Below are positions 2,687 through 55,084 of a stretch of 64,000 bases of DNA, piece by piece. The position numbers were made by a program, and so were the translations under genes. Within the stretch, counting starts at the first letter, position 1; every line of letters starts with the position of its first letter. The notes beneath the pieces are model-generated. The model saw only the letters and a list, made by a program, of their open reading frames with translations. It was not told the origin of the DNA and did no database searches. This stretch comes from Actinomortierella ambigua (Eukaryota > Mortierellomycota > Mortierellomycetes > Mortierellales > Mortierellaceae), in contig JAAAJB010000079.1 of the NCBI GenBank assembly GCA_016098155.1, positions 1-64,000 on the forward strand. Reading direction: 5' to 3'.

Positions 2687-4723
2687 CTACACAAACAAGA
2701 CTTCTACATGAGGGAGAACTAACTGGAGCTCCTTGGCATAGCATCGTGTAAAGGCATCATAAAACGCCCCCTTCTCCTTGTGGTTGGACGGATAGTAGTC
2801 GCAGTCGTAGGGCTCCGCATGGCAGATCATCGACTTTAGCTGGTGCCACGATGCACCCTCCTTTGCTGTCTTGTCAGTAAGCATGGCCTCCAAAAGTCGT
2901 TGCCATTCCAAGCCTGCCTTGCCGCGCCTGCCTTTTCCTTGAACGGTCAACCTGACAGCCAGCAAAACATCATTGTCTAGCCGATAGAGGTAGCGACATC
3001 GAGCCAAGTTGGTCCATTTCTTCTTCGCATCCTCGTCCGTCGGGTCGGTGCTCATCCAACGCAGCACAGGCAGACTCAGCTCCTGTACACCCGAGGCATC
3101 AAACCAAGGTATAGCCACCTTGTGCGCTTGGACCAGCGCTGGCCGTGGCCACTGGCGCCCGTTGTCATACGGCCATGGCCGTCTTCCAAGTGCGTTCGCA
3201 TAGACATGCGGAAATGATTGCGTCAGGCCATTGGCCTGTCGCCAAGTGAGGTGCTGCAGGTGCTGAAGGCGTCCAAGGAAACAGAGACCACCCTCCGGGT
3301 CTAGATCAAACGCCTTGCCAAGAAACCCAATCTCCAACGTCACCAGCTGGGGACAACTGACGGCGACAAAGCCGCACGCCAGCCGCGAAGCCTTGGCATA
3401 CTGCGCATACGTGCGACGGACGATGCACCGCGTCATACGGTCGTTGGTGTACTGTGGCAGGATAAACGCGATCGTGAGCTTTTGAAGCGACGCACAGGCC
3501 CAGGTCCCTGGCGGGATCTCGTCCGCGTGCACCCACATGGGGTCAAAGATCGCCGCGTTGAATCGGATCGCCGGCAAGGTGAGCTCCAGCAGGCCAGCGG
3601 CGGCGGCTTCATCCTCGCAGAGAAACTGGTGAAGCAGACGCGAGATCTTTTGATTGTAAATCATCCTACCGGAAATATCAAGTCGTCCTAGACGAAAATC
3701 GAGGGTGAAGAGAGCTCCTGTCATCTTTGGCGTATTGACAAGCTCGATCCATTGCGAACGAGCAGCAAAGGGGCGCGTGAGAACTGTCATTGTGTTGGGA
3801 TCGTCCTCTGTGCCCTGAATTTGGAACCATTCAAGGTTGCGGCAGAGACCTGCCAGGGTATCAAGAAACTCATCGGAGAAGAGGATCGCGACAGGTATGA
3901 CATACACACTCACAGATAGCTGCTCAAGCGATGGCCCAGCTACAGCTAGGAGTAGAGTCTGGAGCGTCTCTAGTTGCGCTCGGACTCTATCGAGGCGGAG
4001 AGTCGTCAGACGAATAGTTGAACCCTGGAGAAAGTCATCGGGAAGGGGTGCAATCTCAACGCCATGTAGGAGAAGGTGTCTTAGGTTGGGTAGACATATG
4101 GATGGATCGCCAACATTCTCGGTTGACGACGATAGTAGGCGATGCACAGGCAAGGCAGTTATGTTTGAAGATGACAACTCTAGCAGCGTGAGGTGGATTT
4201 GCAACTGAGGGATTCTACAGATGAGTGGCAGGTATCGCATCGGCGAGAGATTCGTCAAACGGAGCTCGCGTAGTTGAGGCCTCGCGGTGCCCGAGCTAGT
4301 GCTCAAGAGATGGCCAAGGTGAGCCAGAAGAGGATCGACGTGCTCATGAAAGCTGATCCAGGCGAAGCAGGCGGGGAGAGTGAGGTGTATCCTGGCGATA
4401 TGAAGTAGTGGATGGGGGAATCTGGCTTGGCTGTTAAAAGAGAGGGCCTCCATGGCCGATGTTGCGCGACGAAAGACTGCCCTCTGGCCAACAGAGCTCC
4501 AAAGGCGGCACACAAGCAGAGGATTCATCCATTCAGAGTGGGTCTTGCGCTGTTTGTGGTGCACACGTCTCAGGTCCCTGTGCCTGAGCTCCTCGAGCAA
4601 CGGCTGAAGAGCATATTCCAGAATCACTCTGAGAATATCTGGCATGAAGATAGCCTGATGGGGCCCCCGTCGAGGTGGAGTCAAGTACGGTGCCTCTAAT
4701 GAAGCCTTGTCCATCGGTGGCAT
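2687..4723 (-). CDS. F-box/LRR-like protein (paralogue 2)
   Basis: Single-exon minus-strand frame. The open frame runs upstream to 4816, but the ATG at 4723 (MPPMDKASLE) is the likely start because the upstream residues are encoded by A/T-rich leader sequence. This gives 678 residues. The N terminus has an F-box-like pattern (MPDILRVILEYALQPLL, then NPLLVCRLWSSVGQRAVFRR). LRR-like segments follow (LRELRLTNLS, LRHLLLHGVEI, LQHLQHLTW). It parallels the preceding gene along its length, including FDLDPEGGLCFLGRL and the motif LPVLRWMS. The two lie head-to-tail about 130 bp apart, as expected for a local duplication. A likely role is SCF adaptor, inferred from family. No membrane segment or signal peptide is visible. 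Confidence 0.75.
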   Translation of the reverse strand: MPPMDKASLEAPYLTPPRRGPHQAIFMPDILRVILEYALQPLLEELRHRDLRRVHHKQRKTHSEWMNPLLVCRLWSSVGQRAVFRRATSAMEALSFNSQARFPHPLLHIARIHLTLPACFAWISFHEHVDPLLAHLGHLLSTSSGTARPQLRELRLTNLSPMRYLPLICRIPQLQIHLTLLELSSSNITALPVHRLLSSSTENVGDPSICLPNLRHLLLHGVEIAPLPDDFLQGSTIRLTTLRLDRVRAQLETLQTLLLAVAGPSLEQLSVSVYVIPVAILFSDEFLDTLAGLCRNLEWFQIQGTEDDPNTMTVLTRPFAARSQWIELVNTPKMTGALFTLDFRLGRLDISGRMIYNQKISRLLHQFLCEDEAAAAGLLELTLPAIRFNAAIFDPMWVHADEIPPGTWACASLQKLTIAFILPQYTNDRMTRCIVRRTYAQYAKASRLACGFVAVSCPQLVTLEIGFLGKAFDLDPEGGLCFLGRLQHLQHLTWRQANGLTQSFPHVYANALGRRPWPYDNGRQWPRPALVQAHKVAIPWFDASGVQELSLPVLRWMSTDPTDEDAKKKWTNLARCRYLYRLDNDVLLAVRLTVQGKGRRGKAGLEWQRLLEAMLTDKTAKEGASWHQLKSMICHAEPYDCDYYPSNHKEKGAFYDAFTRCYAKELQLVLPHVEVLFV

Positions 4724-4835
4724 GGCGTGATGAAATGTGCACAATGAATGAGTGATGTGGAGAGGAGAGACAACTCTGAGCCCAAAAATACTTTTTTTTT
4801 GGCTTGTAGCAACCACAAATTTACGAAACCACCAT

Positions 4836-23474: not shown

Positions 23475-24125
23475 AAGCAGAAACGGGCGTTTCGCTTGTC
23501 CGACGTCTTCTGCCCCCTCTCCCTCTCTCTCCCTGCTTCTCTTTGTTTCATGGCACTCTAACAAGAGTTTATCTCAATGCTATCTTCCGTCTCTGCTCAT
23601 GCACGCCTTTGTTTGCCATATCTCAATGATCACTCGTAATGGCACTCGCCATTCGCACAGAATGGTTTACGCCTCAATTGTTGTATAGTCTCTTTCTCAT
23701 TAAAAACACCCCTACTCTTTCTGTACCTGTGTTTCTGATCATGCCTGGAAAGGGTACCTGTTTTTGCTTTGGCGCCATGGTAGTTCCCAGACCAAAACCC
23801 AATTAGTGCGTTTACCCACCAACAAGGAGGAAAAAGGGCGTCAATGTAACAGCCGTAGATTATTGTGCGACAATTCAATAATCCAAAAATAATTATTCTT
23901 TTTATTTCCTTGTTTGTATAAAGCCAGACATGGTTCGCTCGTTATATAACCTCAACAAGGCCCTCCCCTCCCTTCCAGGCATTCCTTTGCCAGTCCAACG
24001 ATCGTCGTTCATTTCCTCCACACACCTCCCAACACAGCTGCCCCCCTCTCTGTACTTTTAGCCCTCTTACAAGCGCCTTGAAAGGAGTAATATTGTTCTT
24101 GCTCCCTACCATAAAAAAGGAGTCC
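23475..24125. other. intergenic between YRA1 and the RING-CH gene
   Basis: YRA1 3' region followed by the leader of the RING-CH gene. From about 23972 onward this leader is the parent of three decayed copies at 27829, 30119 and 33291. Confidence 0.6.
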
Positions 24126-25744
24126 ATGGCATCCAACGAAAATCCTCCTCCATATTCGGATCAACATGACTCGACGCCAGCTAGAACTCATGGTTCCAGC
24201 AACTCGCCTCTTCGCCGACTCCCCTCTTCCTCCTCACCCTCAGCACCTCCTTTCAGCGACAAGATGATTGCGCCCACATACGGCGCAGGTGGCCACAGTG
24301 GTAGCAACAACAGTAGCAGCAGGGGTACCGAGGAGTCACGCGTTCCAATCGTATACCCAGACAGGTTGGCAGACAGGTACGGAAGCCAGATGGTCCGGCA
24401 ACCCTCCTATGCACCGGACCCACTCCACTCACAGCATAGTCACCACCACCAATACAACCAGTCCGGCTTTATGAATCATCAGCAGCAGCACTACCATCGC
24501 GACGACCAGGACTGGCATCATGGTTCGTCCAACCCTGCTGACAAAAGGAGCGTGTCAATGACGCTCGACACCTTTGTCTCCCAGCATGTGTCCGGAAGAG
24601 CTCGTGGCAGCGTAGGAGGAGGAGGAGGTGGTGGTGGTGGTAGTGAAGCCAAAGGACAAAAATCACCCGAGGCCAACGAGTTTGAGAAGCGATGTCGGAT
24701 CTGCCTGGACACGTCGGCGACGAGCGATCCAGCGCTGGGCCGTCTGATCTCACCCTGCCAATGCAAAGGTTCTTCCAAGTACATCCACCTAGGTTGTTTA
24801 GAACGCTGGCAACAAATGTCACCACGGCCGTCCAGTCAGTTCCAGTGCGACACCTGCCAATACCAATACTCGTATTCCCGCCCCAAGACGGCGGCCTGGC
24901 TGGACAAGACGTGGTTTATCATCTTGCTCACGTTGCTGCTCACCGTCCTCGTGTACTATTTTTTGGCCCTGATCGGACATTTACTCGCAAAGGGGCCAGA
25001 TCCCGTGTGGGATTGGAAGGCTATCGGCGGGTCCTTTGCAGAGTCTAACCAAGCGGTGCTTGGCATCGACTGGCTCGATGTTATTTTTGCCATCATCTCG
25101 GGTGCGCTGTTGACACTCTTGGTTTGGTTGTTAACACCTATTATCCGAGGGGTCTTCAAGTCGTGTCAGCGCCGTCGTCGCATCCGGAGACGGAGGAGGG
25201 AGAGGGCACATGAGGCAGACTTGGAAGGAGGGTATGAACATGGCGAGAGCAGGACATGGGGTCAATCCACGGCAGCAACAGCAGCAGCAACAGGAGGAGG
25301 ATTAGGGGGCCTCTTGGGCGGATGGTTGTGTTTCGGAAATCGACCTTCATCGATGGATGATGATATTGATGCAGCCGTGCTTCACGATAGCGACAGCTAC
25401 CATGAACACGACGATGAGGACGAGAACACGTGTTTTTCGTGCTGTTCGTGTTGCTCCGTTTACAACTGTCCGGGATTTCTGTACTGCCCGTGCGCTACAG
25501 GCGATGGAGACCTTGGCTCGATAGGGTGCGCTTTTTTCATTGTTTTAAGGTAAGTCCTCCCTCCCCTCAAAAAAACAAACAAAGAGTCGGAGAACTGGGA
25601 CCCAAACCAAAATTGCGATTAACATTGTTCCTCATCTATCATTTCTTGTTCCTTCTTAGCATTGCTGTCCTCTTTGGAAGTCTCTTCTTTCTGACCTCGT
25701 ACATCCTCCGCAAGATTCTTGCTGGTATAAAATCGGTAAGATAA
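24126..25744 (+). CDS. RING-CH (MARCH-type) membrane E3 ubiquitin ligase
   Basis: Two exons, 24126-25549 and 25660-25744, give 502 residues ending ILAGIKSVR. A GTAAGA at 25736 could instead be a donor to a further exon. Residues 1-180 are disordered, rich in Ser, His and Gln, with a Gly run at 164-172. The C4HC3 RING-CH finger has ligands Cys190, Cys193, Cys211, Cys213, His221, Cys224, Cys241 and Cys244, with the conserved Trp228 after the His-Cys pair. Hydrophobic segments at about 263-288 and 316-341 and one at the C terminus indicate three membrane spans. An Arg-rich stretch follows the second, and a Cys-rich patch (CFSCCSCCSVYNCPG) precedes the third. Proteins of this class ubiquitinate membrane proteins in the endomembrane system. 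The start is supported by the copied leader sequences downstream. Confidence 0.85.
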
Positions 25745-27828: not shown

Positions 27829-28350
27829 CTAGGCAGTCCTTGCCGATCTAATGATCGTCGTCCTATTCCTCCACAGATTTCCCAACACAACAGTTTGTCT
27901 TTGAACTTTTAGCCTGTCTACAAGCGCCTCGAAAGGAGTAGTAAAAAGAGTCTATGGCATCCAATGAACATCCCTCCCCCCTCCATATTCAGATCAATGT
28001 GGGTCGACACCCGTTAGGACCCATGGCTCCATCAACTCGCCTCTTCGTCGACTCCCTTCTCCCTCTTCACCCTCGGCACCTCCTTTCAGCGACAAGATGA
28101 TTGCGCCCACTTGCGGCGGAGGTGGTCGCAGTGTTAGCTAGAAAAGTAGCAGCAGGGGGGCGCCGAGGAATCGCGCGTTCCCATCGTATACGCAGACAGG
28201 TCGGCAGACAGGTACGGAAACCAGATGGCCGGCAACTCTCTTTTGCGTCTGACCCATTCCACCCACAGCAGAGTCACCGCCGCCACCATCGCTGTGAGCA
28301 GGACTGGCATTATGGCTCGTCTATGGCCTACCTGGCTCATAAAGAGGATT
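27829..28350 (+). pseudogene. RING-CH 5' fragment, copy 1
   Basis: Copy of the leader and first ~140 codons of the RING-CH gene (parent 23972-24545). The start ATG is kept at 27954. Small insertions near the start break the frame, and the parental frame meets a TAG at 28139-28141. The zinc finger and membrane parts are absent, so no E3 ligase can be made. Confidence 0.85.
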
Positions 28351-28852
28351 GAAAGCTGTCCACTTTTATTGATGGAAGGTGGGACCAGGTTCAGTAACGA
28401 GGAATTGGGGTGCATGGTCATGTCGTTATTGACCAACAATGATACGCCACTGCAGAGGCGATCTAACTTAGCCACGCGCACTTCACTGCCTGTGTCTATG
28501 ACATTGGTCGTATGGACAGGCGTCGTGCTTGTCGTACCATCATGGTTCGTGTGAACCGGTCGTCACTCACGCTTTTTTGGGATGGCTTGGATCAATTTTG
28601 ATTTCCCGACCACATTTGGTCTCTCTTCGCCTACGCACCACATTCTCACAGATGGTCCCTCCCTTTTGTTTACTCAACTTCTCACTAACAATGGGGAGAG
28701 GGGGCAATTGTCATGCTGGAGAGTCGTCTATCTAAAATCCCGTCAAATATGCACACAATGCATGACATGCCCTTGCTCTTTTGAGATTGACCAGAAAGGG
28801 ACGTGTCACCCCTTGACCGTGTGAATCGTCGATGCCACAATTCAAAACGCAA

Positions 28853-28859
28853 TATAAAT
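28853..28859 (+). promoter_or_regulatory. TATA box of secreted paralogue 1
   Basis: TATAAAT lies 79 bp upstream of the exon 1 ATG at 28932. The same element stands at nearly the same distance in the other two paralogues. It is preceded by a conserved block, GGGACGTGTCACCCCTTGAC. Confidence 0.6.
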
Positions 28860-28931: not shown

Positions 28932-29858
28932 ATGCTTATCAGGAACATTGCACTCATCACAGCCTGTGGTAAGACTCTCGTTTGATGCGTCAATGCAAGG
29001 GCCACGGTCTTCTCCCACCTCTAACCTACTCATGCTTGAACATCAATCGGGCCTTGCGCTCACATTCTCTCACAACCATCCCGCCTCTCTCCACCCTGGA
29101 TGTAAATATTAGCCACCATGGCTTTCGCCCAAGATGCCGCCGCTACCAGAGGGCGGTTCCTTGGCGAGGACACCACGAAGCGTGGCTCGGATCCAGTCGA
29201 GATGTACAAGGATCCAGCCAACCATGCCACCGCCGCGGCATCGATTCTTCGAGGTCTCGCAGTGGAAACCGGATGTTTTCCTCAGGAAAACTCCCCAGCC
29301 GAACTGGCCACAAAATTGTCCGACTGGGTCTCCAGCTTGTGGGAAACGTCTGCTTTGGAACCGGACCCGCCCGTCCAGCGAGCCATTCGATTTGATGGCG
29401 ACAAGGAGTCTCTGGGTGCCACCATCACCAGCGCTATTGCAAAATTGCCCCACGCTGAATATGTCGGTCAGGAGCTGGCGCGGATGGTCCCGAAGCACAT
29501 TGAGGACCGTGGTCTTAAGCGGTGGAGCCTTTTCCTGGTGATCGTTGAAAAGCCCAAAGATGACAGTTCTGTCGAGGTCTACCTCTGTGACCTGGCACTA
29601 AAGATTGAACCTCTCGGTCCTGAGGTCGAGGTCTTCATTCCTAGGCAGAGTCTCATGTTGTCTCTGCAATCGTTTATACTGAATGCAGAAGACGTGGAAT
29701 CCAAGGCTGAGCAGTATGCCAATGAGTATGGCGTCACAGAAATGGAGGACTTCAAGTGGTTTTTTGAATCCCAGGACTCGTCGCAGGAGGTTAATTGGAG
29801 TAGCTGCCGCAGCGGTAGCCAACGCCTCCGCTTCCAGGCCCTTGAGAACTGGCTTTGA
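28932..29858 (+). CDS. secreted protein of unknown family, array paralogue 1
   Basis: Two exons, 28932-28968 and 29113-29858, with a 144-bp GT-AG intron, giving 260 residues. The 37-nt first exon is easily missed. Splicing joins it to the Kozak-like ATG of the long frame and creates the signal peptide MLIRNIALITACATMAFA, cleaved before QDAAA. A dibasic KR at residues 35-36 (DTTKR) could be a Kex2 site, making residues 19-36 a propeptide. The mature part appears helical at first and then rich in alternating strands (FLVIVEKPKDD, VYLCDLALKIE, VEVFIPRQ). The end is nearly identical among paralogues (ESKAEQYANEYGVTEMEDF). I know no matching family with certainty. The size and layout faintly recall Cyt-type pore-forming proteins, but no diagnostic motif is visible. 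Confidence 0.85.
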
Positions 29859-30118
29859 CGATAAGACAGAGCTAGTCTTATGCTCCGTCAAATAGTGGTG
29901 CGATGCTATTTCTTCCCCTCCAATATAGCTTGTTGTAGACAAAACATCATTGAAGTACAGTATCTAGTTCCTCCATCCCCTGTTTTGTGTCTCTTACATC
30001 TTGGAGAGAGAGTGAGTGTGAGAGAGGACGTGGTGGCCGGGATTGACCTGTTAGGCGTACTCCGTCATGGCCTTACTGCCCTTTTGTTAAGTACTGATTG
30101 ATCCAGTTTTATTTTCCT
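29859..30118. other. 3' flank of paralogue 1 and leader of unit 2
   Basis: Short non-coding stretch with a GAGAGAGAGTGAGTG run and the repeated CGTACTCCGTCATGGCC leader. No gene seen. Confidence 0.6.
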
Positions 30119-30690
30119 CTAGGCAATCCAACGATCGTCGTCCTTTTTTCCTCCTCATACTTCCCAACACAGCTGTCCATCTCTGTACTTCAAGGGTGCT
30201 TACAAGCGCCTCAAGAGGAGTACATTGCACAGTTCCTGTTCCAACCCTTTTTTTTTTAAAAAAAAAAAAGGGAAGTCAGTGCATCCAACGAACATTCTCC
30301 TACATATTCAGATCAGCATGACCCGACGCCAGCTAGGACCCATGACTCCTGCAAGTCGCCTTTTTCGTCGGCTCCTTCTTCCTCTTCACCTTCGGTACCT
30401 CCTTTCAGTGATAAGATGATTGCACCAACCCACAGAGTAGGTGGTCACGGTGATAACAACATCCGAGTATTCGCGCACCCCCATCGTTTACCCAGACAGG
30501 TACGGAAATCAAATAGCCCGGTAACCATCCTATGTATGCTTCTGACCCATTCCACCCACAACAGAGCCACCTCCACGATCATCATCATCATTACTACTAC
30601 CAGTCCAGCTCTATGGATTCTCAGCACCACCACCACCAATGTGGCAGCCACGGCTGGCATCATGGATCGTTCACGTGGCTCCCAAAAAGG
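30119..30690 (+). pseudogene. RING-CH 5' fragment, copy 2
   Basis: Second copy of the RING-CH leader and N-terminal coding region. The start codon is lost (CAGTGCATCC where the parent has CCATGGCATCC). A poly-T/poly-A junction at 30249-30269 and several frame breaks are present. No zinc finger follows. Confidence 0.85.
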
Positions 30691-31593
30691 ATTGTAAGCT
30701 GCCTGTCTATTTTTTTTGGGGGGGGGGGGAGCCAAGATCATTCAGAACTCAGTCGACTACTCAGGGAATGAAACATTGGCCATTACACATGAACATCAAC
30801 TCCTCGTTTTTCACCTTGCCCAGTGACCCAAATGGCAGTCGGTTAGCAAATTTATGGTTAATCGCCATGTCGTTCTTGGCCAACGCCGATGCGCCTTTGC
30901 ATTGATGATTTACTATGGCTACTGCCTGTGTCTATGACAAAGGTTAAAAGCTGGACTACGATGGCCAAGGCTCACAATGTCAGCTTATGATAACCACACT
31001 CAGGAACCAACACTTGAGAAGATAGATGGCCTTGGGCCGCCTTATCTGTGGGTCGCGGAAGGAAGCACTGGCATAATTATATCCCATAAGGTTTGCTCGC
31101 CGGATTCTCACAGATGGTCTTGAGCTGTGTACGGGTTGTATATTTTCCACGACTAACTCTTAAAGAATTGAAATAGGGAAACCATCCGAGTGATTATATA
31201 CTATATGTCCACGAGAGTATGGCTGGGATCTGAAATGCGCTCAACTACAGGGGGGAGGGTTTCATGAGCAGGCGTCGCGCTTGTACTGCCACCATGGTTC
31301 GTGTGAACCGGCCTTCACTCATGTCCTTGTTAACGGGATTGCCTTGGTTTCCTGACCACATGCCCACCTTCGTCCACACACCACATTCTTGCAGATGGTC
31401 CCTCCCTTTGTTTGCTCAACTTCTCACAAGCTAGGGGAGACCAATTGTCCTGCTGGAGAGTCATGTATCAAAAACGACGGCCAATAATGTACACGATGCA
31501 TGAATACATGCCCTTGCTCTTCCTGAGATTGACCAGCAAGGGACGTATCACCCCTTGACCGTGTGAATCTTCGATGATACAACCCAAACGAAA
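30691..31593. other. spacer of unit 2
   Basis: Non-coding sequence between the RING fragment and the TATA box of paralogue 2. Much of it is repeated at 33886-34727, and parts appear in unit 1. A segment present here (about 30930-31250) is missing from unit 1, which explains that unit's shorter length. Confidence 0.5.
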
Positions 31594-31600
31594 TATAATT
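31594..31600 (+). promoter_or_regulatory. TATA box of secreted paralogue 2
   Basis: TATAATT, 77 bp upstream of the ATG at 31671, a weaker form of the TATAAAT seen in paralogues 1 and 3. The conserved GGGACGT..TCACCCCTTGAC block precedes it. Confidence 0.55.
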
Positions 31601-31670
31601 GGGTCCATTCACCTCTCGAAATATCTTTATACCTCTTTTCCTCTCGTCACCACATCCCATTTCATCTGGA

Positions 31671-32611
31671 ATGCTTGTCAGGACCATTGCACTCATCACA
31701 GCCTGTGGTAAGAGTCCTTCATCTGATGCGAGATTGTAAGAGCCACGCTCTTGTCTCGCCCCTAACCTACTCATACTTGTACATCGATCGGGCCTTGTCC
31801 TGTCATTTTCACTCCCTCCCCCTCCCCCACACTCACATACTTTCTGTCGTGGGTGTAAATATTAGCCACCATGGCTTTCGCTGGAGGCGCAGCCGTTTCC
31901 AGGGGGCGGTTCCTTGGCGTGGACACCACGAAGCGTGACTCGGATCCAGTCGAGATGTACAGGGATCCGGCCAACCATGCCACCGCCGCGGCATCTATCC
32001 TTCGAGGACTTGCAGTGGAAGCCGAGTATTTTCCTCAGGAAGACTCCCCAGCCGAACTGGCGACAAAATTGTCCAGCTGGACCTCCAGTCTGCGTAATTC
32101 GCTTGCGTTGGAAAGGCACATGGCTAACCTCCGACTCGTTCGATTCGATGGCGACAAGAAGACTCTGGGTGCCGCCATCGCCAGAACTATCGCGAGGTTT
32201 CCCCACGGTGAACGTGTTAGTCAAGAGCTAGTGCAGATGGTCCCAAAGTACGTAGCGGACCTTGATCTTACGCAGTGGCGCTTTATCCTGACGATCGTTG
32301 ACAAGCCCAAAGATGACAGTTCTGTCAAGGTCTACCTCTATGACATGGCACTTAAGATTGAGCCCCGCGGTCCAGCGGTCGAGGTCGTCATTCCTGAGCA
32401 GCGTTTCACTGTGGACCTGTATCCGTTTTCACTGAATGCAGAGGACGTGGAATCCAAGGCTGAGCAGTATGCCAATGAGTATGGTGTCACAGAAATGGAG
32501 GACTTCAAGTGGTTTTTTGAATCCAACGACTCGTCGTCGGAGGTTAATTGGGGCAGCTGCCGCAGCGGTAGCCGACGCCTCAGCTTCCAGGCCCTTGAGA
32601 ACTGGCTTTGA
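31671..32611 (+). CDS. secreted protein of unknown family, array paralogue 2
   Basis: Exons 31671-31707 and 31866-32611, intron 158 bp, 260 residues. The spliced signal peptide is MLVRTIALITACATMAFA, with cleavage before GGAAV. The candidate Kex2 site DTTKR is kept, followed by DSDPVEMY. The N-terminal 70 residues nearly match paralogue 3. The middle (about residues 85-195) differs from both others, for example LVRFDGDKKTLGAAIAR where they have IRFDGDKESLGATITS. The last 60 residues are again nearly shared. The frame is intact with no stop or frameshift, so the gene is probably functional. No domain is recognised. Confidence 0.85.
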
Positions 32612-33290
32612 CGATAAGACGGAGCCAGACCCACGATAGTCCGTCCAGTAGTCTCTAGTATAGCTTGTTGCAGGCAAATACATCATTGAAGTATCCAGCT
32701 CCCTATCCCCTGCTTAGTCACTCTTACATCTTGGAGAGAGAGAGAGAGAATGTTTGCATGTGTTGGTGTTGTCTAGTGTAAGCGAAAGCCAGTCAAGGGA
32801 TGAGATTGCAATATGCCTCCGTGCTTCAGCCACCGAGATGGGGTTTCCTTTTGCAAAAGAGTTGGCACCAATTCTGGCTTCCTGTACGAGCTATTGTTCG
32901 ACTATCATTGCCTCGTACAAAGCATGGGCGACAATGTCCTGTCAATTACCATGACGGAGGTCAATGATGGTTTCATGGCTTCTACATATGAGCTTGCAAG
33001 GCATAGCGTTTGTTTTTGACCTTGGAGACTCGCTGAGTAAGAACACAATTTGCTGTGCCATTGCGAACTGGGCTGGTCAGGGATAAAACTTGTTTCGATA
33101 CTTGTTTCGATGCTTGAGATCGACAACTAACCATCGCCCTAAGCAGATCTGTGGTTTCTAAGTTTCTTGACACTGTCGAACGTGAATGCCCAGGCCCATG
33201 GGTGAGAGTGAGAGAATGATCAGCGTTCTCCGCCATGGCCTGACTGCCCTTTTGTAAAGTACTGTCGTGATTGATACAGTTTTTCTTCCT
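32612..33290. other. 3' flank of paralogue 2
   Basis: Non-coding. Sequence at 32790-33190 is repeated, diverged, at about 35975-36450, showing that the duplicated unit includes this 3' flank. A GAGAGA run lies near 32735-32750. Confidence 0.5.
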
Positions 33291-33885
33291 CTAGGCAGCC
33301 CTTTACCAGTCCACCGATCGTCGTCCTTTTTTCCTCTTCATATTTCCCAACACAGCTGCCCATCTCTTTACTTTTAGAAGGATGCCTCATTACACAACTC
33401 TTGCTCCCAACCCCCTTTTTTTTTTTTTTAAAAAAAAGGGGAGTCAATGGCATCCAACGAACATTCTCCTCCATATTCAGATCAGCATGACCCGACGTCA
33501 GCTAGGACCCATGACTCCTGCAAGTTGCCTTTTCGTCGGCTCCTTCTTCCTCTTCACCCTCGGCACCTCCTTTCAGTGATAAGATGATTGCGCCAACCTA
33601 CAGCGTAGGTGACCATGGTGGTAGCAACAACAACATCAGCAGGGACACCGAGCATTTGCGCTCTCCCATCGTATACACAGACAGGTACGGAAATCAAATG
33701 GCTCGATAACCATCCTATGCATCTGACCCATTCCACCCACAACAGAGCCACCACTATCATCATCATGATCATCACTACCAGTCCAGCTCTATGGATTATC
33801 AGCACTACAGCCACCAATGTGGCAGCCACGACCAGCATCATGGCTCGTTCATGGCCTACATAGCTCACAAAGAGGTTTGTAAGCT
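33291..33885 (+). pseudogene. RING-CH 5' fragment, copy 3
   Basis: Third copy. The ATG is kept at 33447 and the first ~25 codons read like the parent (MASNEHSPPYSDQHD). A frameshift near CCTTTTCGTCGG then leads to a TGA about 45 codons in. Like the other copies it ends near parental residue 140. It also has a poly-T/poly-A junction just upstream of the ATG. Confidence 0.85.
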
Positions 33886-34727
33886 GCCTACTTATTTGGA
33901 GGGGGGGGGGCTAATCTCAGTCGACTACTCAAGGAATGAAACTGTGGTCATTACAAATGAACATCAACTATTCGTTTTACACCTTGCCCAGTGACCCAAA
34001 TGGCAGTCGTTTAGCAAAATTGTGGTCGATCGCCAAGTCGTTCTTGGCCAACGCCGATGCGCTTTTGCATTGATGATTTACTATAGCTACTGCCTGTGTC
34101 TATTGCACTCAGGAACCAACACTTGAGAAGATAGATGGGCGTAGACCGCCTTATCTGTGGGTCGCGGAAGGAAGCACTGGCATAATTATATCCTATAAGG
34201 TTTGCTCGCCGGATTCTCACAGATGGTCTTGAGCTGTGTAGTGTTTTCACGGGTTGTTTATTTTCCAAGACTTGCTCGTAAAGAATTGAAGTAGGGAAAT
34301 ACCATCCGAGTGTTTATATACTACATAACCACTGTTGTCATGGTGAGGAGTATGGCTGGGATCTGAAATGCGCTCAACTACAGGGGGGAGGGTTTTATGA
34401 GCAGGCGTCGTGCTTGTACTGCCACCATGGTTCGTGTGAACCGGCCTTCACTCATGTCCTTGTTAACGGGATTGCTTTGGTTTCCTGACCACATGCCCAC
34501 CTTCGTCCACACACCACATTCTTGCAGATGGTCCCTCCCTTTGTTTGCTCAACTTCTCACAAGCTAGGGGAGACCAATTGTCCTGCTGGAGAGTCATGTA
34601 TCAAAAACGTCTGCCAATGGTGTATACGATGCATGAATACATGCCCTTGCTCTTCCTGAGATTGACCAGCAAGGGACGTGTCACCCCTTGACCGTGTGAA
34701 TCTTCGATGCTACAACGTAAAACGAAA
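33886..34727. other. spacer of unit 3
   Basis: Non-coding sequence closely matching the spacer of unit 2. It runs to the TATA box of paralogue 3. No gene seen. Confidence 0.5.
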
Positions 34728-34734
34728 TATAAAT
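34728..34734 (+). promoter_or_regulatory. TATA box of secreted paralogue 3
   Basis: TATAAAT, 77 bp upstream of the ATG at 34805, preceded by the same conserved block as in the other two units. Confidence 0.6.
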
Positions 34735-34804
34735 GGGCCCATTCACCTCCCGAAATGTCTTTATACTACCTTTCCTCTCGTCACCACCTTCCACATCATC
34801 TAGA

Positions 34805-35732
34805 ATGCTTATCAGGACCATTGCACTCATCACAGCCTGTGGTAAGAGTCATTCGCTTCACGCGAGAATGTAAAAACTGCACTCTTGTCCCGCCTCTAAC
34901 CTCCTCATACTTGTACATCAATCGGGCCTTGCCCTCAATTTCCCTTTCTCCCTCCCGCCTCTCTCCGTCCTGGATATAAATCTTAGCCACTATGGCTTTC
35001 GCTGGAGGCGCTACCGTTTCCAGGGGGCGGTTCCTTGGCGTGGACACCACGAAGCGTGACTCGGATCCAGTCGAGATGTACAGGGATCCGGCCAACCATG
35101 CCACCGCCGCGGTATCTATCCTTCGAGGACTTGCAGTGGAAGCCGAGTATTTTCCTCAGGAAGACTCTCCGGCCGAACTGGCCGCAAAATCGTTCGACTG
35201 GACCTCCAGCCTGTTCGATTCGTCTGCGCTGAAGGCAGACCGGTCCGTCCAGCGAACCATTCGATTTGATGGTGACAAGGAGTCTCTGGGTGCCACCATC
35301 ACCAGCGCTATTGCAGAGTTGCCCAACAGTAAATATGTTGGTCACGAGCTGGCGCAGATGGTCCCGAAGCAGATTGCGGACCTTGATCTTACGCGGTGGA
35401 GCCTATCCCTGGTGATCGTTGACAAACCCGCGGATGACAGCTCTGTCAAAGCCTACGTCTATGACCTGTCACTACAGATTAAACCCCGTGGTGCTGGGGT
35501 AGAGGTCATCCTTCCTAGGCAGACTCTCATCTTTTCCCAGCAATCGTTTACACTGGATGCAGAGGACGTTGAATCCAAGGCTGAGCAGTACGCCAATGAG
35601 TATGGCGTCACGGAAATGGAGGACTTTAAATGGTTTTTTGAATCCAAGGACTCGTCGTCGGAGGTCAATTGGAGCAGTTGCCGCAGCGGTAGCCGACGCC
35701 TCAGCTTCCAGGCCCTTGAGAACTGGCTTTGA
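34805..35732 (+). CDS. secreted protein of unknown family, array paralogue 3
   Basis: Exons 34805-34841 and 34987-35732, intron 145 bp, 260 residues. The signal peptide is MLIRTIALITACATMAFA, with cleavage before GGATV, and the DTTKR dibasic site is kept. The N-terminal part goes with paralogue 2, while the centre (IRFDGDKESLGATITSAIA) goes with paralogue 1, so the gene is a mosaic. The C-terminal block ESKAEQYANEYGVTEMEDF and the closing SFQALENWL are shared. Two cysteines at most remain in the mature part (one in SSCRSG), so disulphides are unlikely to define the fold. Function unknown; export is the only confident inference. Confidence 0.85.
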
Positions 35733-46610: not shown

Positions 46611-47552
46611 TCAGGGTACGGCGCCTCGATTGGATGCTTCATACCGAGGTTTGTATTTACTGGTATTCGATGCCAAATCGCCATAAAGACAACAGAATGG
46701 AGGACACCTCTCATTATCCCGATGATCAAAAGGGAGGCTCGGCACTTCAAGACGTCTCTTCGAGATCGCAGCGTCCAACTGGTTCAATAGTGCTGTGCCT
46801 GGTGTGGATGGAAGCTGTCCAGCGAGCGACGGCTGGCATTTGATGAGTCTCTCTGCAGTTTCTTGCAGGTGTTGGATTTGGAGGAGTAAACAATTTCGCT
46901 GGATGACCAAATATGGCGAGCAAGGAACATGATGGCAAAACATACCCACGTCCTTCTCTGCCCACCTTGCGTAGTGGTACGAAAGCTCATACCTCCACTC
47001 ATGAAAACAACAATTAGGATCTTTCAATGCTTCTTCCCATGTTCGGTTTAGTCCAAGAAATTGGTCGCATGGTTTCACGTGAGGAAATCGCGGCATTGGC
47101 TGATATGATGGTGATAGCCGTGGTTGCTGTACAAGTGTCGGTGTTGGTGCTGGATGATGCGATCTTTTGGGGGTCGGTCGCGTCATTGGACAGAAGCGTC
47201 GCTCAGCTCTTGCTGGCTTTTGGGTCATCTCGCGTGCACTCGGTGTGCTCGACTTGGACGAGGTGGAGGTGTCGATGGTGCTGAGAGCTCCGATGGCACG
47301 AGCAAGTTCGTGGATAAGTGAGGCTTCCGCAAGGCTGCTCGTCGACTCTGTCTTGGCCGAGTCGAGCGTGAGAGCGTTGACAGCGGTAGCCAGGTCGTTC
47401 ATCGACATGTTGGTGGGATTGTACCTGGCAGCAGCAGCAGGGTCAAGCGTGAGAGCGGTGATGGCTGCGACCAGGTTGTTGATATGAGACGGATCCGAGG
47501 CATTGGTAACCGAGTTACTGGCCGGCGCATTGACACAATTGACGGACGACAT
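46611..47552 (-). CDS. unknown mosaic-family protein, copy 1
   Basis: Single exon of 313 residues from the ATG at 47552 (MSSVNCVNAPAS). The N-terminal 115 residues hold three versions of a short helical motif: LVAAITALTLD, LATAVNALTLD and LARAIGALST. A basic Pro-rich linker (RRFCPMTRPTPKRSHHP) follows. The C-terminal half has the family motif VKPCDQFLGLNRTWEEA, then diverges strongly from copies 2 and 3. It has extra cysteines and a different tail. There is no signal peptide or membrane segment, so it is probably intracellular. I know no matching family. A CRE-like site lies near 47669-47678 upstream. Confidence 0.65.
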   Translation of the reverse strand: MSSVNCVNAPASNSVTNASDPSHINNLVAAITALTLDPAAAARYNPTNMSMNDLATAVNALTLDSAKTESTSSLAEASLIHELARAIGALSTIDTSTSSKSSTPSAREMTQKPARAERRFCPMTRPTPKRSHHPAPTPTLVQQPRLSPSYQPMPRFPHVKPCDQFLGLNRTWEEALKDPNCCFHEWRYELSYHYARWAEKDVGMFCHHVPCSPYLVIQRNCLLLQIQHLQETAERLIKCQPSLAGQLPSTPGTALLNQLDAAISKRRLEVPSLPFDHRDNERCPPFCCLYGDLASNTSKYKPRYEASNRGAVP

Positions 47553-47668
47553 TGTGTGGCAAGGGGGAAGGGTTGGGTGCTGGTTCACACGATTTATTGA
47601 TACTGGAGGAAGGGGAAAAGCGGGGAGAGATGTTCGTGTGAGTTTTTTGTTCCTCTCCTTTTGCCATG

Positions 47669-50805: not shown

Positions 50806-51756
50806 TTACTTAAGATGGTAGCTGCCTATGTATACAGGATCTACAAGACGACGACATGTTTTACAATAATAATTATTATTGCTACCAGAGTCACCAAGCT
50901 CTGGTATCAACTCCTGCGTAGACACATGGTGGCCCCATTGATCGAAGTGTATTTTTGAGATTATATCCTCCACCTGCTTCATGAACTCAGCGCTTGGTGG
51001 TGATGGAATCCGGCCCGCGAGCAAAGGCTGGCATGCGAGAAGACGCTCCGTAGAATGTTGTAAATCCTGGAGGCTCATAAATTGCTGGGTTTGAATGCGG
51101 AGCAGCGATTGCGAACGACCTTCCCAACTGAACGCGAAGCGCAGACAGTCCTCCCCCGAGATTACTAGGTTATAGTCCAACTCATAATCCCAGTAATGTA
51201 TGCAGTTATCATGAGCGATCGATACTTCCTCCCATGTTCGGTCAAGTCCACGAAATTGATCGCATGGCTTCACGACACGTATTCGCGGCAATGGCGGATA
51301 TGGTGGCAGCCATGGTTCCTGTACAAATGCCGGTGGTGGTATCAGTATTGGCACTGGATGATGTGATCTTTTGGGGGTCGGTCGCGTCATTGGACAGAAG
51401 CGTCGCTCAGCCCTTGCTGGCTTTTGGGTTGTCTCGCGTGCACTCGGTGTGCTCGTCTTGGACGAGGTGGGGGTGTCGGTGGTGCTGAGAGCACCGATGG
51501 CACGAGCGAGTTCGTGGATAGGCGAGGCTTCTGCAAGGCTGCTCGTTGGCTCTGTCTTGGCCGAGTCGAGCGTGAGAGCGTTGACAACGGTAGCCAGGTC
51601 GTTCATCGACATGTTGGTGGGATTGTACCTGGCAGCAGCAGCAGGGTCAAGCGTGAGAACGGTGATGGCAGCGACAAGGTTGTTGATATGAGACGGATCC
51701 GAGGCATTGGTAACCGATTTACTGGCTGGCGCATTGACACAATTGACGGACGACAT
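50806..51756 (-). CDS. unknown mosaic-family protein, copy 2
   Basis: Single exon. I take the ATG at 51756 (MSSVNCVNAPAS), as in the other copies, giving 316 residues; an upstream in-frame ATG at 51876 is not conserved. The three helical motifs (LVAAITVLTLD, LATVVNALTLD, LARAIGALST), the basic Pro-rich linker and VKPCDQFRGLDRTWEEV are present. The C-terminal half has the block FDQWGHHVSTQELIP and ends with a CxxC pair (YYCKTCRRLVDPVY), possibly part of a metal site. It appears to be the most complete member. Function unknown. Confidence 0.65.
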   Translation of the reverse strand: MSSVNCVNAPASKSVTNASDPSHINNLVAAITVLTLDPAAAARYNPTNMSMNDLATVVNALTLDSAKTEPTSSLAEASPIHELARAIGALSTTDTPTSSKTSTPSARETTQKPARAERRFCPMTRPTPKRSHHPVPILIPPPAFVQEPWLPPYPPLPRIRVVKPCDQFRGLDRTWEEVSIAHDNCIHYWDYELDYNLVISGEDCLRFAFSWEGRSQSLLRIQTQQFMSLQDLQHSTERLLACQPLLAGRIPSPPSAEFMKQVEDIISKIHFDQWGHHVSTQELIPELGDSGSNNNYYCKTCRRLVDPVYIGSYHLK

Positions 51757-51888
51757 GGTGTGGCAAGGGGGAAGGGTTGGGTGTTGGTTCACACGATTTA
51801 TTGATACTGGAGGAAGGGGAAAAGCTGGGAGAGAGGTTCGTGTGAGTTTTTTTTCCCTCTCCCACATTTGTAGCATGTCACAAAGAAT

Positions 51889-54169: not shown

Positions 54170-55084
54170 TTACAAAAAAAAATGTGTTTTACAATAGAAA
54201 TATGTTTTGGTGCAGCGATGTTGTATCAACTCCTGCGTAGATACATGGTGGCCCCATTGATCAAAGTGTCTTTTTGACATCATATCCTCCACCTGCTTCA
54301 TTAACTCTGTGCCTGGTGGTGATGGAGTCCGACCCGCGAGCAAAGGCTGGCATGCGACAAGACGCTCCGTAGAATGTTGTAAATTCTGGAGGTACATAAA
54401 TTGCCGGAATAGAGAGCGGAGTAGCGAATCACCATCCCAACCTAACGCGAAACGCAGACCATGCTCCCCCGCGATTGCTAGGTCATAGTAACACCTATAC
54501 TCCCAGTAATGTCTACAGTTATAATGAGTGTTCGACACTTCCTCCCATGTTCGGTTTAGTCCACGAAATTGATCGCATGGCTTCGCGTGAAGCATTTGCA
54601 GCAATGGCGGAAATGATGGTGACAGCCATGGTTGCTGGTCAAGTGTCGATGGTGGTATCGGTGGTGGTATCGGTGTTGGCGCTGGATGATGCGATCTTCT
54701 GGGGGTCGGTCGCGTCATTGGACAGAAGCGTCGCTCAGCCCTTGCTGGCTTTTGGGTCATCTCGCGTGCACTCGGTGTGCTCGTCTTGGACGAGGTGGGG
54801 GTGTCGGTGGTGCTTAGAGCTCCAATGGCGCGAGCGAGTTCGTGGATAGGCGAGGCTTCTGCAAGGCTGCTCGTCGGCTCTGTCTTAGCCGAGTCGAGCG
54901 TGAGAGCGTTGACAGCGGTAGCCAGGTCGTTCATCGACATGTTGGTGGGATTGTACCTGGCAGCAGCAGCAGGGTCAAGCGTGAGAGCGGTGATGGCTGC
55001 GACCAGGTTGTTGATATGAGACGGATCCGAGGCATTGGTAACCGAGTTACTGGCCGGCGCATTGACACAATTGACGGAGGACAT
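54170..55084 (-). CDS. unknown mosaic-family protein, copy 3
   Basis: Single exon of 304 residues from the ATG at 55084. The N-terminal half is almost the same as in copy 1 (LVAAITALTLD, LATAVNALTLD). The C-terminal half is closer to copy 2 (KPCDQFRGLNRTWEEV, HFDQWGHHVSTQELI). After that point a short duplication of TTGTAAAACA changes the reading frame and the protein ends early (YFYCKTHFFL). Copy 2 continues there through its CxxC segment. The lost CxxC frame is still visible in the downstream DNA. It may be a weakened or altered copy. Confidence 0.6.
   Translation of the reverse strand: MSSVNCVNAPASNSVTNASDPSHINNLVAAITALTLDPAAAARYNPTNMSMNDLATAVNALTLDSAKTEPTSSLAEASPIHELARAIGALSTTDTPTSSKTSTPSAREMTQKPARAERRFCPMTRPTPRRSHHPAPTPIPPPIPPSTLDQQPWLSPSFPPLLQMLHAKPCDQFRGLNRTWEEVSNTHYNCRHYWEYRCYYDLAIAGEHGLRFALGWDGDSLLRSLFRQFMYLQNLQHSTERLVACQPLLAGRTPSPPGTELMKQVEDMMSKRHFDQWGHHVSTQELIQHRCTKTYFYCKTHFFL

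Follow-up and report, generated by a model that had tools for sequence, protein, structure and literature searches.

Where does translation begin in a cluster of tandem genes whose long open reading frames (ORFs) each offer an inner ATG, and what kind of protein do these genes encode? The question is posed by three neighbouring genes, here called copies 1 to 3, in a 64,000-base stretch (the window; bases 1-64000 of contig C754) of the genome of Actinomortierella ambigua, a fungus of the family Mortierellaceae. An earlier note on this DNA had proposed that the three genes share a hidden 37-nucleotide (nt) first exon that turns their products into secreted proteins. We followed this proposal through the genome (33.8 Mb, 846 contigs), through 71 related database proteins (P0002-P0072) and into a predicted structure. 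Judged from sequence, the mini first exon is almost certainly real in all three window genes and, with a probability of roughly two in three, the genes form a tandem cluster of a large secreted Mortierellaceae family with a Cyt-like fold and a membrane-damaging role.

The first exon and the start site

In each copy a TATA box precedes an ATG (by 79, 77 and 77 bp in copies 1, 2 and 3), which opens an exon of 12 codons plus one base (37 nt) that is followed by a GTAAGA donor and a phase-1 intron. The acceptors read TTAG before CC (AATATTAG/CC in copies 1 and 2, AATCTTAG/CC in copy 3) and directly precede positions 29113, 31866 and 34987. The elements of the three genes are as follows.

28853..28858, plus strand: TATA box of copy 1, 79 bp before the ATG
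28932..28968, plus strand: exon 1 of copy 1, 37 nt; start of the putative signal peptide, MLIRNIALITAC plus the first base of Ala13
28969..29112, plus strand: intron of copy 1, 144 nt, phase 1
29113..29858, plus strand: exon 2 of copy 1; rest of the putative signal peptide, predicted Cyt-fold core and stop
29178..29183, plus strand: lysine-arginine (KR) codons of copy 1 (residues 35-36), not conserved across the family
31594..31599, plus strand: TATA box of copy 2, 77 bp before the ATG
31671..31707, plus strand: exon 1 of copy 2, 37 nt
31708..31865, plus strand: intron of copy 2, 158 nt, phase 1
31866..32611, plus strand: exon 2 of copy 2; the counterpart P0004 in a second A. ambigua strain (DFQ26) is annotated with exon 1
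34728..34733, plus strand: TATA box of copy 3, 77 bp before the ATG
34805..34841, plus strand: exon 1 of copy 3, 37 nt
34842..34986, plus strand: intron of copy 3, 145 nt, phase 1
34987..35732, plus strand: exon 2 of copy 3; the spliced product is DFQ27_008994 (P0006), the protein used for folding

The joined frame is open over 260 codons in all three copies, and the intron lengths differ modulo 3. Divergence between copies amounts to 1-2 of 37 bases in exon 1, 21-26% plus gaps in the intron and 14-16% in exon 2. A 25-nt string spanning exon and donor (at most 3 mismatches) occurs three times in the window and not once in 100 shuffles. The coordinates given in the earlier note proved exact, and the TATA distance, donor, intron place and intron phase are in every copy as it described them.

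The strong evidence, which we regard as decisive for the exon, comes from the sequences of divergent paralogues. A query with copy 1 returned 33 genome matches, 30 of them at 22-39% identity, and upstream of 32 there is a phase-1 ATG exon with a GT donor whose joined product starts like a signal peptide, in line with the signal peptide that the earlier note proposed for the window copies. Exon 1 measures 37 nt in 26 of these, 34 nt in three and 40 nt in three, and its protein sequence is conserved across paralogues and genera. The 33rd match (C261:38741) is a partial copy whose alignment begins at residue 110; another piece of it lies upstream. A rule fixed after inspecting the data (exon of 34, 37 or 40 nt, GTA or GTG donor, hydrophobic) was positive in 31/32 real upstream stretches versus 5/32 on the reverse strand, and in 200 dinucleotide shuffles the mean was 0.63/32 and the maximum 4/32. 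The 32 intron lengths fall into all three modulo-3 classes (about 12, 11 and 9), which argues that the frame is held by splicing; these lengths are approximate, the script having taken the best-scoring candidate per locus and chosen the acceptor itself. At C261:33790 and C152:3213 (script introns of 67 and 68 nt) the deposited proteins P0012 and P0015 are spliced at an acceptor further downstream, and the script's acceptors at other loci may likewise be off.

The family is considerably larger than the window cluster. Queries with P0009, a protein of the DFQ27 tag series (like DFQ27_008994) that matches the genome at 100%, and with P0013 gave 51 and 36 matches; merged by position with those of copy 1, they define 48 loci, several of which are fragments or contain in-frame stops. 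The identity of P0006 and P0009 to genome sequence makes the DFQ27 strain, or a near copy of it, the most likely source of the window. The clustering that the earlier note described stands, whereas its family size of three does not. We checked 43 of the 48 loci for the exon (all except C341:9485, C152:8433, C152:100, C152:1979 and C223:176376), including 10 of the 15 loci beyond the 33 matches of copy 1. The rule recovered the exon at C222:5094, C222:3952 and C222:8656, the latter two being broken copies, and a 43-nt version was found by eye at C312:72153, so that the signal exon is present in 36/43 checked loci.

Several observations weigh against this picture. Agreement among the three window copies is by itself weak evidence, because they share a recent common ancestor. 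At two of the 32 loci (C1:16746 and C312:21529) the intron can be read through without a stop. The exon is also not universal, being absent at seven of the 43 checked loci:

C261:38741, the partial copy
C50:29519
C261:28248
C222:2296
C222:6697
C222:10715
C152:13843

The last four (L025 for the C222 loci, L017 for C152:13843) make up a distant subgroup with a hydrophilic MAES or MAEA start, which may be a branch with the same fold that stays inside the cell. Cytosolic homologues lacking the exon were what the earlier note had named as contrary evidence, and such homologues, probably not secreted, are indeed present, well removed from the window copies.

The long frames could also be read from their inner ATG, giving cytosolic proteins of 246 residues with the upstream ATG as a short upstream ORF. 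Copies 1 and 2 have the Kozak-like context GCCACCATGG there, as the earlier note stated, although copy 3 reads GCCACTATGG, and one deposited model (P0005) starts at this position. Yet the corresponding Met15 occurs in only 4/32 genome members, 16/32 lack a Met anywhere between exon 1 and residue 60, the peptide encoded by exon 1 is conserved among paralogues and in other genera, and exon 1 is spliced in the deposited P0004 and P0006. We therefore rejected the inner ATG as the true start, which is very improbable. Processing by Kex2 was likewise rejected: the dibasic KR at residues 35-36, which the earlier note had counted as a family feature, is found among the 32 genome members only in the three window copies (as well as in their DFQ26 counterparts P0004 and P0005) and is lacking in the other 29.

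Deposited annotations treat the start unevenly. The model P0006 is identical to spliced copy 3 over 260 amino acids, and P0004, the counterpart of copy 2, has exon 1 annotated and matches at 252/260 residues. The counterpart of copy 1, P0005 (239/246 identical), has its annotated start at the inner ATG, which shows that exon 1 is missed in practice, and the paralogue models P0007 and P0016 begin at an ATG in the last intron bases (acceptors CATGATAG and CATGCTAG). The warning that simple ORF calls miss the true start is borne out by these three models. Part of the family is thus annotated without its signal peptide, and secretome surveys will undercount it. P0011 of another strain, which bears the deposited name 'sterol homeostasis protein', combines a family member with a protein of PF04161 (Arv1) and is apparently a gene-model fusion of neighbouring genes.

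Relatives, predicted fold and possible action

Named database matches come from Mortierella, Linnemannia, Podila, Entomortierella, Haplosporangium and Actinomortierella, all Mortierellaceae, and some matches are unnamed metagenome proteins; the protein searches depend on shared 5-residue words and do not imply absence outside the family Mortierellaceae. A search with the profile A1 scored only the 7998 candidates richest in common words and consequently returned only A. ambigua proteins (14), unlike the single-protein queries, which reached other genera.

By a crude hydrophobicity rule, 50 of the 71 database proteins start like a signal peptide and 21 do not. Several of the 21 begin in or beside exon 2 (P0005, P0007 and P0016), two are labelled partial (P0010 and P0063) and P0029 (MQLVYSLLLLCSAVALL) seemingly fails only for want of a basic residue. 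Signal-peptide-like starts occur in five of the six genera, the sole Haplosporangium protein (P0071) being a short model without one. The spliced starts of 32/33 genome matches fit the pattern of a basic N-terminal end and a hydrophobic core, with the small residues at -3/-1 judged by eye. These patterns make secretion very likely, and the export of about 240 residues proposed in the earlier note is, on this evidence, the most likely outcome. An uncleaved signal sequence could instead anchor the protein in the fungal membrane or surface, where it would act on the fungus's own membranes, and the crude rule by which signal sequences were recognized leaves some room for this. It is nevertheless improbable, as the small -3/-1 residues seen by eye in many members (AFA, ALA or similar) fit cleavage by signal peptidase and the predicted core begins directly past the signal sequence.

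Comparison with family databases yielded only scattered single-member matches in Pfam and NCBIfam (best E 0.012, a different family each time). PF01338 (Bac_thur_toxin) did not appear among the matches listed for 25 members, even at E up to 10, and had no match in the A. ambigua genome, a search with weak controls, and profile A1 found nothing among PDB sequences at E up to 1. The structure model of P0006 confidently predicts a beta-sheet with helices over residues about 20-232, followed by a low-confidence C-terminal tail, and shows the alpha/beta/alpha sandwich common to volvatoxin A2 (VVA2), Evf and Cyt proteins; the best PDB E-value in Foldseek was 4.9e-5 with the first model, and CytC rows in the Foldseek lists were weak. 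On this model the family probably has the Cyt fold, so that the earlier note's remark that no family could be named holds for Pfam and NCBIfam and fails at the level of predicted fold.

The viral structure database BFVD also gave five matches at E <0.001, all to unnamed or uncharacterised viral proteins and with low TM-scores. The first, M1I283 (unnamed; E 3.8e-6), beats the best PDB entry by Foldseek E-value, albeit at a low TM-score; the next is M1HBT0 (E 1.7e-4, TM-score likewise low).

In the mechanism that we propose, the gene structure is well supported by comparison: the short exon 1 encodes the basic beginning of the signal peptide and the greater part of its hydrophobic core, and after removal of the phase-1 intron exon 2 supplies the cleavage region and the entire folded domain. 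The protein would then enter the endoplasmic reticulum, lose about 18 residues and leave the cell at about 240 residues. Once released, it may bind and disturb lipid membranes of other organisms in the manner of VVA2 and Cyt proteins. For these, passages of PMC5390079 and PMC13211469 describe helical layers that swing off the sheet, a sheet that binds the membrane and oligomers that form pores, and also discuss a detergent-like action. Membrane damage by the window family, as suggested by the predicted fold, has about an even chance of being right.

A soil fungus would most likely employ such proteins to defend itself against grazers or microbes or to compete with them, and the genes would have multiplied and diverged as tandem copies. 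A role in conflict is indirectly suggested by the 48 loci, by their tandem clusters and by a descriptive estimate in which nonsynonymous (dN) comes near synonymous (dS) divergence in middle parts of the protein when copies 1 and 2 are compared, other pairs being mostly lower. Alternatively, the secreted proteins might bind lipids or fatty acids without lysis, as extracellular lipid carriers or persistence factors, which would fit the lipid pocket proposed to be common to Evf and Cyt proteins. So large an expansion in tandem, and a middle part that is near-neutral between copies 1 and 2, look more like conflict than housekeeping, an indirect argument that leaves lipid carriage rather unlikely.

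A survey of open-licence literature found no paper linking these fungi to volvatoxin, secreted cytolysin or delta endotoxin, and in passages of PMC8778642 and PMC11291939, on Mortierella and pore-forming proteins, no such family was noticed. This is apparently an undescribed large fungal family of secreted proteins. Such a multi-copy secreted branch, which the Pfam profile misses, would equip common soil fungi with a candidate protein arsenal and would provide a large natural series for comparison of Cyt-fold proteins.

Origin and surroundings of the cluster

Each repeat unit of the cluster contains a decayed 5' fragment of a RINGv-domain gene that lies upstream:

24123-25550: RINGv-domain gene, upstream of the cluster
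27977..28370, plus strand: decayed RINGv-gene 5' fragment, head of repeat unit 1
30281..30747, plus strand: decayed RINGv-gene 5' fragment, repeat unit 2
33444..33733, plus strand: decayed RINGv-gene 5' fragment, repeat unit 3

Because every unit has such a fragment, what was copied is part of the RINGv gene together with one family gene, a duplication unit that crosses a gene boundary. Copies 2 and 3 (31271-32065 and 34405-35187) are close over 400 bases upstream (5.8% difference) and over their first 65 codons, but far apart later, a pattern that suggests sequence exchange between them.

Elsewhere in the window, a second tandem trio occupies the minus strand (ORFs 46611-47588, 50806-51876 and 54170-55084); its members have a common N-terminal part (MSSVNCVNAPAS...) and differ in their C-terminal parts, and for the first (46611-47588) Pfam gave nothing at E up to 1. 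Two adjacent, similar-looking long ORFs, also on the minus strand (369-2600 and 2687-4816), look F-box/LRR-like by eye, although a Pfam search with 369-2600 was negative at E up to 1.

Comparison with known systems

The likeness to AGL surface proteins of Rhizophagus irregularis is one of gene architecture only. As PMC8786786 describes, their genes have one conserved intron adjoining the site of signal-sequence cleavage, and the first exon is short, at 65-79 nt. AGL are unrelated proteins with P/G-rich repeats, and in the window family the first exon is shorter still (34-43 nt) and the split falls inside the signal peptide. The killer toxins of Saccharomyces (Klus/KHR, SMKT type) are also secreted by a fungus, and PMC13211469 compares their structure with that of VVA2 and Cyt; they are not among the fold-list rows shown for the window family.

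By fold, the close known systems include the bacterial Cyt delta-endotoxins (Cyt1Aa, Cyt2Ba, 1cby; PF01338) and VVA2 of Volvariella volvacea (PDB 1vcy, 1pp0 and 1pp6), which has 8-10% identity to the window family. VVA2 is a mushroom protein described as a pore former (in passages of PMC13211469 and PMC5390079), whereas the window family is multi-copy, has all its named matches in Mortierellaceae and is a candidate for such an activity. The virulence factor Evf (PDB 2w3y) is bacterial and, according to an excerpt of PMC5390079, carries palmitate on a pocket cysteine. In an alignment of 25 members no invariant or near-invariant column is a cysteine; a single tail cysteine (A2 column 303, in the low-confidence region) is common to 17/25, is possibly a dimer or lipid site and does not imply equivalence to the Evf site.

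PMC5390079 also groups Cyt-fold proteins into three clades, volvatoxin, Evf and bacterial Cyt. Tentatively, and with somewhat more doubt than confidence, the present proteins might form a fourth, unnamed clade of dozens of loci, in which an ancient phase-1 intron splits the signal peptide of a diversified extracellular membrane-attacking arsenal and the exon-less subgroup is intracellular. For now the family is best filed, not as a member of PF01338, but as a eukaryotic branch of secreted proteins that has expanded and for which a Cyt fold is predicted.

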